From: Arcanobacterium sp. | GTDB taxonomy: Bacteria > Actinomycetota > Actinomycetes > Actinomycetales > Actinomycetaceae | Assembly (NCBI GenBank): GCA_022783665.1 | Contig: JALFZJ010000033.1 | Location: 1-64,000, forward strand | Reading direction: 5' to 3' | DNA length: 64,000 nt | Shown here: positions 34,355 through 48,411 of the stretch, piece by piece | Layout of the letters: every line of letters starts with the position of its first letter | How positions within the stretch are numbered: position 1 is the stretch's first letter | Position numbers and translations under genes: made by a program | The notes under the pieces: model-generated | Seen by the model: the letters and a program-made list of their open reading frames with translations, nothing else | The model's database searches: none | Told to the model about the DNA's origin: nothing

Positions 34355-35203
34355 CTAAACCTGGCGTTCGAGTTCAGGTAAGGCAGTGGGCGAGCCGCTG
34401 ATGAACCGAGGACCGGCTGTAAAGTGGATCTGTTGATAAAGCTGGCGAGCGACGTCGTTCCACGTCCACATTCCAAACGTCACATACGGCACTTGCGTCA
34501 ATAGTGAATTCGTTGCTTGGACGATGAGCGTGCGCCCGAAGCCGTGTCTACGAAATGCTGGAAGCGTGCCAAATCCGCCCAAATGGGCTGAACCTGGGCG
34601 CTTCTCGATGCCGAGTACGCTGGCTATAGTCCCCGAGGAGCTGCGCAGGTAGGCCCAATCAAAATCATCAAAGTCATCAATTGCAGAAGTGATCGGATTG
34701 GATTGGGCAAGCACGGTTCGAAGCTCGGCATATAGTGGTGCCACAGCCCCACGTTCGCTGAAGGGGAGCGAACGCGGGGAGCGCAGGTATTCCACCTTGT
34801 AAGCATTGCCGCCACGCGGCGTCCGTGCAGGTGCTTGAGGGTGATCCACAGCATCATATTCCAGTGGCTGTGATGTGTAGTAATAATCCCACTCAAGGCC
34901 CCAGTGTTCGCCAAAATGGTGGCGTTCACTATCAGTAAGCGATTCGTAGACTTCTCGATTCATCATGACGCGTGCAGGAGTGCGCCACTGGTGAGGGAGG
35001 GCGGCTAGCGCAGAAGCAGCGGGTGCAGGTTCACCAAAGATCACGAGCCGGTAGCCAACCTCATGAGCGGTGTTTGTGGCAGGATGCCGAGGCGCTACGA
35101 CGGCGACACACGCCTCGTCGTCTTCATGAAGATAGAGCGCCTCGTTGAGCAAACCGGCGTCATACCGCCAAAATGGATGGTTTTTTCCGAGCGTTTCCCC
35201 CAT
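34355..35203 (-). CDS. GNAT family N-acetyltransferase
   Basis: A 282-residue protein whose C-terminal part has the acetyl-CoA loop HLGGFGTLPAFRRHGFGRTLI (from about residue 215) and the following strand YVTFGMWTWNDVARQLYQQIHF. The N-terminal 140 residues have no recognisable motif. ATG 35203 is preferred: the frame upstream is antisense to smc. There is no Shine-Dalgarno site, but TACAAT (35216-35211) ends seven bases before the ATG, so the mRNA may be leaderless. Divergent from smc with only 37 bases between the starts. Substrate unknown. Confidence 0.8.
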   Translation of the reverse strand: MGETLGKNHPFWRYDAGLLNEALYLHEDDEACVAVVAPRHPATNTAHEVGYRLVIFGEPAPAASALAALPHQWRTPARVMMNREVYESLTDSERHHFGEHWGLEWDYYYTSQPLEYDAVDHPQAPARTPRGGNAYKVEYLRSPRSLPFSERGAVAPLYAELRTVLAQSNPITSAIDDFDDFDWAYLRSSSGTIASVLGIEKRPGSAHLGGFGTLPAFRRHGFGRTLIVQATNSLLTQVPYVTFGMWTWNDVARQLYQQIHFTAGPRFISGSPTALPELERQV

Positions 35204-45807: not shown

Positions 45808-45851
45808 AAACGGTGGGTTTGTGGCGCATAGGTGCCCCAAACCCACCGTTT
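45808..45851 (+). terminator. strong intrinsic terminator after khpA
   Basis: A perfect 14-bp stem, AAACGGTGGGTTTG with CAAACCCACCGTTT, around a 16-base loop, ending in TTTTAT. It lies within the rpsP to trmD block, so rimM is probably lowered relative to rpsP by partial termination or has its own promoter. Confidence 0.85.
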
Positions 45852-45897
45852 TATATGCGATTCAACCATATTGAGGCCTCACGGAGGGGAGTGTCTG

Positions 45898-46437
45898 ATG
45901 AAGCTTGACGTTGCAATCATAGGTGCGGCACACGGCCTTAAAGGTGAAGTGAAGCTTGATGTGCGTACGGATGATCCAGCAGCACGCTTGGCTCCTGGCA
46001 ATACGCTTTTGACGGATCGCCCTAAGCCTGACACGCTCACAGTCGTGAAAACCCGGCAATACAAAGACGCAACGTATGCCTATTTTGAAGGCGTTACGAC
46101 GCGCGATACAGCCGAAGCGCTTAGAGGCGTACGCCTCCAGATAGATACCAGTTCTCTACCCTCGGAAGAAGACGCGTGGTATTCCCACGAGCTTTGCGGG
46201 TTAGAAGCTCTCGATCCTGAAGGTTACGAGCTTGGCACAGTGGTGGGCCTCGAACCTATGCCCGCACAAGATTTGTTACTGGTGCGTATTGATAGTGGGG
46301 AAATCGTTCGCGTTCCATTTGTGCACGAGATCGTTACGGATGTAGACGTGGACGATCACTGTGTGGTGATAGATGCACCAGCAGGGCTGTTCCCTCGGGA
46401 TGACGCTGACGACGAGTCGGAAAGTGAGTCTCAATGA
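45898..46437 (+). CDS. rimM: ribosome maturation factor RimM
   Basis: A 179-residue 16S rRNA maturation protein. The N-terminal beta-barrel starts with MKLDVAIIGAAHGLKGEVKLD; the PRC-barrel-like C-domain contains WYSHELCGLEALDPEG and IVRVPFVHEIVTDVD, ending in an acidic tail. GGAGGGGAG lies nine bases before ATG 45898. The stop overlaps the trmD start by four bases (ATGA), so both are made together. Confidence 0.94.
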   Translation: MKLDVAIIGAAHGLKGEVKLDVRTDDPAARLAPGNTLLTDRPKPDTLTVVKTRQYKDATYAYFEGVTTRDTAEALRGVRLQIDTSSLPSEEDAWYSHELCGLEALDPEGYELGTVVGLEPMPAQDLLLVRIDSGEIVRVPFVHEIVTDVDVDDHCVVIDAPAGLFPRDDADDESESESQ

Positions 46438-47918
46438 GGTTCAGCGTCATCAGCGTCTTTCCGCAATTCTTTGATGTTGCGAGACTATCGCTTCTTGGCA
46501 AGGCTCAAGACCGAGGCCTTATCAGCGTTGAAGTCGTAAACTTGCGAGATTTCACGCATGATGTACATCGCACCGTAGACGACTCGCCGTTCGGGGGCGG
46601 AGCCGGAATGGTGATGAAACCAGACGTGTGGGCGGAAGCGATCGACGCTCAGCTAAGCGCGCCCGATTCGAGTGGCGAAACTGGTGAGCCGGCGCACCTC
46701 GAACACGGATCCTCTGATTCTCCCCACCCCAGCCATGCAATCGGTCAGTCTGATACTCCTGGTACCGCACAAAACGCAACGCATACTGTGCTCGCTATTC
46801 CAACGCCGTCAGGAATACCGCTCACGCAAGAAATGTGCGCGCGCCTTGCGCAAGCGAAACACATTGTGATTGCTTGCGGCAGATACGAAGGCATCGATGC
46901 GCGCGTAGCCCAATACTATGAAAGTCGCAGTGGAGTGGAGGTGCTCGAATACTCGCTGGGAGACTATGTGCTCAACGGCGGCGAGGTAGCTGCCATGGCG
47001 TTGATGGAGGCTGTAGGCCGCCTCGTGCCGGGAATGGTAGGTAATCCCGACAGCCTAGTAGAAGAGTCGTATAGTGGGGCGGGACTCCTAGAATATCCCA
47101 TATACACGCGGCCTTCGGTTTTCCGAGGGATTGAGGTGCCTCGGGTGCTCACCTCCGGTGATCACGGAAAAGTTGCCCGATGGCGTAAAGCCCGTGCACT
47201 CGCGAAGACGGCCGAACGCAGGCCTGATCTCATTAGTGCGTTGCGGCCCACTCAGCTTGATAAAGCAGATCGAGCCCAGCTTGCTCAGCTCGGATGGTTA
47301 GTGAATGATGACGCCGAGCACATCCAGCAGATTCGTATCCGCCTAGCGGGGCCTGAAGATGTGCCTGCCCTCGCAGAGCTCGCTGCACGCACATTTCCTG
47401 ATGCTTGCCCGCCCGAATTACAACCTCAGGCGATCGCCGAATTCATTGACCAGGAGCTTTCGCCAACCCAGTTTTCGCATTACATCGCCTCTGATGAGTA
47501 TCTCGTGCTCCTTGCTGAGGTTGGCGGCATGCTGGCAGGCTACGTGCTATGCGTTATTCCGCAAGGGAATGGAGCAGCAGATGAAGCTCATGGCGCTCCG
47601 ACCGATGCGGTGATTAACGGAACCAAGCGCAATGGGCCGCTGTACTATCTGTCAAAGTTCTACATTGACCGCACATGGCGTGGGAGTGGTTTGTTTGACT
47701 ATATGATGAATCAGACACTCCAATATCTCGGTGAGCTGAGCCGGAGTTTGGGTTACCCACAGCCATACGTTTGGTTGGGTACGAATGAAGCAAACCGGCG
47801 CGCTCGCCGAGCATATCAACGCCACGGATTTGTAGTGGTGGGTCAGCGAACTTTCTATGTGGGTGATGAGATCAACACAGATCCCGTTATGGCAAGGCCT
47901 GTGTTTATGGCACAATAG
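46434..47918 (+). CDS. trmD: tRNA (guanine-N1)-methyltransferase TrmD fused to a GNAT acetyltransferase domain
   Basis: Residues 1 to about 285 are TrmD, which methylates G37 of tRNAs: MRFSVISVFPQFFDVARLSLLGKA, DDSPFGGGAGMVMKPD, and the SAM-binding knot with GRYEGIDARV and EYSLGDYVLNGGEVAAMALMEAV. An insertion of about 40 hydrophilic residues sits between ~82 and ~122. From about residue 302 (IQQIRIRLAGPEDVPALAELAARTFPDA) a complete GNAT domain follows with the acetyl-CoA loop FYIDRTWRGSGLFDYMMNQ and WLGTNEANRRARRAYQRHGF. The reading frame is continuous with no sign of a stop or restart. The acceptor of the acetyl group is unknown. Confidence 0.92.
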   Translation: MRFSVISVFPQFFDVARLSLLGKAQDRGLISVEVVNLRDFTHDVHRTVDDSPFGGGAGMVMKPDVWAEAIDAQLSAPDSSGETGEPAHLEHGSSDSPHPSHAIGQSDTPGTAQNATHTVLAIPTPSGIPLTQEMCARLAQAKHIVIACGRYEGIDARVAQYYESRSGVEVLEYSLGDYVLNGGEVAAMALMEAVGRLVPGMVGNPDSLVEESYSGAGLLEYPIYTRPSVFRGIEVPRVLTSGDHGKVARWRKARALAKTAERRPDLISALRPTQLDKADRAQLAQLGWLVNDDAEHIQQIRIRLAGPEDVPALAELAARTFPDACPPELQPQAIAEFIDQELSPTQFSHYIASDEYLVLLAEVGGMLAGYVLCVIPQGNGAADEAHGAPTDAVINGTKRNGPLYYLSKFYIDRTWRGSGLFDYMMNQTLQYLGELSRSLGYPQPYVWLGTNEANRRARRAYQRHGFVVVGQRTFYVGDEINTDPVMARPVFMAQ

Positions 47919-47966: not shown

Positions 47967-48057
47967 TGCACCAGCGAGTTTCTATTGGCGTGGCCGCGCA
48001 CAGTGCGACGGCTCTTAACCCCACCTGGCCTGCGTGCAGGAGGAGAAGAGAAACAAA

Positions 48058-48411
48058 ATGGAGATTGTAAAGAAGGTAGCCGAGGCCCAGCTCAAGGAGC
48101 GTCCAGAGTTCCGTGCAGGCGATACCGTCAAGGTTAATGTAAAGGTTGTCGAAGGTAACCGTGAACGTATCCAGGTATTCCAGGGCGTCGTCATTGCGCG
48201 CAAAGGTGGCAAGGGTATTAATGCTACCTTCACCGTACGCAAGGTTTCTTTCGGTGTGGGCATTGAGCGTACATTCCCACTGCATTCGCCCAATGTGGAT
48301 TCGATCGAGGTTGTGACGCTCGGCTCGGTGCGTCGCGCTAAGCTCTATTACCTGCGTAACCTGCATGGTAAGGCTGCGAAGATTAAGGAAAAGCGCACAG
48401 ACGCTAAATAA
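48058..48411 (+). CDS. rplS: 50S ribosomal protein bL19
   Basis: A 117-residue protein with the conserved [36 protein letters not shown] and [17 protein letters not shown]-type text (here [18 protein letters not shown]), and [17 protein letters not shown] at the end. ATG 48058 starts [18 protein letters not shown] stands about 12 bases upstream. Last gene of the rpsP-rplS block, followed by two hairpins. Confidence 0.96.

Follow-up and report, generated by a model that had tools for sequence, protein, structure and literature searches.

The window analysed here is a stretch of 64,000 nucleotides from a contig of Arcanobacterium sp., and the locus of interest within it consists of rimM, trmD, and rplS (Table 1). 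The trmD gene reads as a single open frame of 494 residues, and its start overlaps the end of rimM by ATGA. The first-pass annotation had proposed an unbroken frame joining TrmD to a GNAT acetyltransferase domain, with rimM and rplS adjoining. Both parts of that proposal are borne out: the open frame agrees with the Pfam and NCBIfam domain matches, and the two neighbours lie on either side of it.

Table 1. Features of the trmD locus in the window and of the second TrmD-GNAT fusion
Feature	Position	Strand	Remarks
rimM, upstream of trmD	45832-46437	+	named from sequence; true start probably internal, ~45898
Complete trmD frame	46434-47918	+	494 residues
TrmD module, residues 1-285	46434-47288	+	SPOUT knot and C-terminal tRNA-binding helices; NF000648, Foldseek, motifs
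Insert in TrmD module, residues 76-113	46659-46772	+	low-complexity, disordered, ~38 residues
Short TrmD-GNAT linker	47289-47324	+	join at native C-terminus of TrmD
C-terminal PaiA-like GNAT domain, residues 298-494	47325-47915	+	~197 residues; Pfam, structure, motifs
rplS (bL19), downstream of trmD	48034-48411	+	named from sequence; true start probably 48058
Second TrmD-GNAT fusion	L214:1039-2310	-	further loci L215, L235-L261, L267

The N-terminal half scores 285.1 bits against NF000648 (the TrmD equivalog; cut-off 220) over residues 1-267, 233.9 bits against TIGR00088 (cut-off 195), and 183 bits against PF01746. Its best Foldseek matches are actinobacterial TrmD structures (TMt 0.83-0.89, E 4e-24), and the TrmD motifs GGGAGM, GRYEG, SLGDYVLNGGE, and EES do not vary over 43 relatives. 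The Arcanobacterium protein has the same motifs, fold, and operon position as bacterial TrmD, the tRNA m1G37 methyltransferase (PDB 3quv, 7kff, and 4yvi), but adds the C-terminal GNAT domain and a disordered loop insert. Since many relatives lack the insert, the TrmD match splits at about residues 75/116. An AlphaFold model of the full protein, built with 43 relatives as input, has a mean pLDDT of 87.6. Values are about 95 in the GNAT half (95.8 when it is modelled alone), and the sole segment below 50 comprises residues 92-113, within the insert. Unfused actinobacterial TrmD proteins mostly end about 10-55 residues from the same RRPD helix, and the alignment places the GNAT junction after the native C-terminal helix of TrmD.

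The C-terminal half matches two GNAT families within residues 327-473, PF00583 at 34.7 bits (cut-off 20.7) and PF13673 at 30.8 bits (cut-off 23.6). In a profile search against solved structures it matched a GNAT of L. curiae (8osp, E 2e-26) and PaiA of B. subtilis (1tiq, E 1e-24). Many GNAT structures align to the domain model at Z 16-22; the top two are again 1tiq (BsPaiA, Z 21.8) and 8osp (LcGNAT, Z 21.7), and TA0374 of T. acidophilum (Z 21.0) and RimI (Z 17.9) lie further off. The domain shares with the PaiA-type enzymes (1tiq, 8osp, and TA0374) the fold, two catalytic tyrosines, an N-x-x-A-x-x-x-Y motif, and a conserved end strand that contains G and D. It differs from them in its fusion to TrmD, in an identity of only 18-24% over the structural alignments, in a signature of its own (TFPxACP, LSKxY, and WLG[TV]N..N.RA), and in a Tyr where the general-base Glu is expected. 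From sequence and model comparison it is assigned to the PaiA/LcGNAT subclass, the known substrates of which are small amines (spermidine and canavanine). The score against the PaiA equivalog NF053587 (50.5 bits) is below the cut-off of 250. Replacement of RimI by the fused domain is ruled out, since TIGR01575 (RimI) matches it at 15.3 bits against a cut-off of 86.4 and a RimI-like gene is present separately (C48; 78.2 bits, just under the same cut-off). Elsewhere in the window, a GNAT-like match to PF00583 (25 bits) lies at 34421-34651 on the reverse strand, in a long frame with no NCBIfam match.

The 8osp enzyme acts selectively on canavanine, and three of its residues, Glu92, Tyr97, and Tyr142, are important in catalysis (PMC10416765). 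In the alignment the equivalents of the two tyrosines, Tyr410 and Tyr461, are present in all 93 fused and all 36 stand-alone sequences. The general-base position, residue 405, is Glu in 67/93 fusions and Tyr in 22/93, the latter also being the residue in the window protein. The claim of an intact acetyl-CoA loop stands in part: the loop, RGSGLF, is partly canonical, but it lacks the last G/A of R/Q-x-x-G-x-G/A. Among the fusions this final site is Ala in 59/93 and Phe in 17/93, while the P-loop glycine at 419 is retained in 84/93; the PaiA subclass often has degenerate P-loops (PMC10416765). The dN/dS of the GNAT half is 0.09-0.32 for close pairs, indicating purifying selection. Judged from sequence and model, the GNAT fold is probably working, and the nearest structures, the invariant tyrosines, and the purifying selection make a small-amine acetyltransferase the best prediction.

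The first-pass annotation had proposed a survey of TrmD architectures in Actinomycetaceae and relatives, and had named two findings that would count against its reading, a frameshift joining separate genes and loss of acetyl-CoA-binding residues across homologues. In the survey, 188/200 family genomes gave a GNAT profile match, and 93 distinct sequences, each with both catalytic tyrosines, were confirmed as same-frame fusions. The full protein is matched in all ten genomes of the genus and across the family, in many cases end to end. TrmD and GNAT lie in the same frame at 51 of the 57 named loci and, in the family designated f13, at 23 of 24, the remaining locus ending at a contig edge. Carriers by name include Trueperella, Arcanobacterium, Actinobaculum, Actinotignum, Flaviflexus, Actinomyces, and Georgenia; in family f3, TrmD ends without a GNAT domain in the alignment. 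No frameshift was found, nor did the second adverse finding arise, the two tyrosines being invariant. That a sequencing or frameshift artefact has united two genes has next to no chance of being true, and such an error, like one of assembly, is ruled out by conservation: the same fusion occurs in well over a hundred species, single-contig genomes among them. The fusion is natural and conserved in nearly the whole family.

A second type of TrmD-GNAT fusion was found in family f17, where 27 of the 33 sampled genomes match over nearly its entire length; in one f10 genome it is matched over the stretch present on the contig. The GNAT of this type (L214 and L235-L261) is joined, as that of the first type is, behind the RRPD helix of TrmD, but it belongs to a different subfamily, with 1y9k rather than PaiA as the closest PDB entry by sequence and 16% identity to the first-type GNAT in a profile alignment. 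Some f17 genomes keep the first-type GNAT as a separate gene; genome G300, for example, has both the separate gene (L171) and the fusion (L214). Because f17 carries a different GNAT at the same point and has the first type separately, TrmD-GNAT fusion has arisen at least twice. GNATs are very frequent in these genomes, with dozens of candidates each in an initial search, and chance therefore contributes; recurrence by itself is no proof of a functional link. The recurrence with an unrelated GNAT keeps some functional link possible.

The first-type GNAT occurs as a gene of its own, in most cases encoding about 180-220 residues, in families f5, f8, f9, f17, and f19 and in others of the Actinomycetales. 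Fused and stand-alone copies share the signature TFPxACP ... LSKxY ... WLG[TV]N..N.RA...Y ... VG....D, part of which PaiA lacks, and they fall in one tree. The stand-alone orthologues (such as those of Isoptericola, L116, and Luteimicrobium, L128) differ from the fused copies in being separate genes with no TrmD within the neighbourhood examined; in every genome with both positions listed, the gene is distant from trmD or on a different contig. No second copy was found in fused genomes at E <= 1e-15 save for a distant paralogue in one genus. In relatives without the fusion, a search with two GNAT profiles found no pre-fusion GNAT in the interval from trmD to rplS. In two f19 genomes (L216 and L283), these two genes are separated by a frame of about 165-186 residues that resembles a membrane protein. 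We infer that the stand-alone state came before the fusion. Fused and stand-alone rows are intermixed in the GNAT tree, and fission is thus possible in some lineages. The TrmD tree needs four changes, yet a single fused clade, and with it a single origin of the first fusion, is not rejected by these sequences (p-AU 0.35).

The first-pass annotation had suggested that the acetylation is tied to tRNA or ribosome assembly. The corresponding explanation, in which the GNAT acetylates a translation component near TrmD such as a tRNA nucleoside or a ribosomal protein (bL19 or bS18), draws on the position of the fusion in the rimM-trmD-rplS operon, the appearance of such fusions at least twice with different GNATs, and the retention of the linkage in most of the family. 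We regard it as quite unlikely. The nearest structures are small-amine acetyltransferases of the PaiA type, with RimI farther away, and the genome encodes RimL-like proteins elsewhere in addition to the RimI-like one. The orthologue, when alone, is away from trmD wherever both were located, and its neighbours are varied, with no single conserved neighbour and no conserved link to translation genes. The suggestion is accordingly not upheld. The idea of assigning a function through the genes beside the stand-alone copy was dropped, no single one being conserved.

A GNAT profile match is missing in 12 of the 200 family genomes. In several of these, at six loci (L009 and L010, from one genus, L219, and L221-L223), TrmD carries an in-frame tail of 150-245 residues in which the GNAT motifs are worn. 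Three loci of genus g20 (L218, L224, and L225) have tails of about 180-200 residues without a recognisable domain, and at L220, in another family genome, TrmD has only a short tail and no GNAT domain. Since decayed tails remain in frame, catalysis can go while the tail persists. The GNAT fold may serve TrmD as a structural or acetyl-CoA-sensing module for which catalysis is optional. The tails that outlast their motifs are consistent with this, as are the Glu to Tyr change at the general-base position and the recruitment of two unrelated GNATs with little in common beyond the fold and acetyl-CoA binding. We consider such a role unlikely, though far from negligible: the tyrosine pair is kept throughout the 93 fusions, as a working enzyme requires, TrmD does without the domain at L220 and in f3, and orthologues exist as separate genes.

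The reading that we prefer, with slightly better than even confidence, is that of a natural two-enzyme fusion in which TrmD is joined to a small-amine GNAT that was once independent. The TrmD module would methylate G37 of tRNA, as its family membership suggests, and the GNAT module would use acetyl-CoA and the tyrosine pair to acetylate a small amine, of polyamine or basic-amino-acid type. In an ancestor of Actinomycetaceae and relatives, TrmD would have gained at its native C-terminus an actinobacterial GNAT that had been an independent gene, leaving the fused domain as presumably the sole copy in those genomes. The link between the two halves would probably be shared expression, stoichiometry, or location and not a joint reaction on tRNA. 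Counting against a small-amine substrate are the Tyr in place of the general-base Glu, in the window protein as in 22 of the 93 fusions, and the failure to reach the NF053587 cut-off. A polyamine transporter was also considered as support; the best match to potA in the genome has 302.7 bits, the cut-off being 355.6. With at least two unrelated GNATs on TrmD, the link could exceed shared expression. It is conceivable, if improbable, that acetyl-CoA binding or acetylation is tied to m1G37 formation, which would be why TrmD gained a GNAT at least twice and how a decayed domain can stay on in a regulatory role. If true, reading-frame maintenance would be tied to acetyl-CoA status, or a modification would be made next to G37.

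A described fusion of TrmD is TrmD-Tm1570 of C. nitroreducens. There too a second enzyme is naturally joined to the C-terminus of TrmD, and each part is also found as a single gene (PMC11187310). Its second part is a SPOUT methyltransferase (PMC11187310), whereas that of the Arcanobacterium fusion is an acetyltransferase. The literature searched, which comprised neither subscription papers nor database domain-architecture pages, yielded no description of a TrmD-GNAT fusion, and the architecture may be recorded elsewhere.

TrmD is an essential enzyme and an antibacterial target, and the Actinomycetaceae include animal and human opportunists. Across this family TrmD is a fusion, which is not the form modelled in standard TrmD studies. 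The interest of the finding lies mainly in the recurrence of the fusion and in its presence on an essential enzyme. The recurrence with unrelated GNATs raises the question of whether acetyl-CoA chemistry is linked to tRNA methylation or whether trmD is a convenient expression partner.
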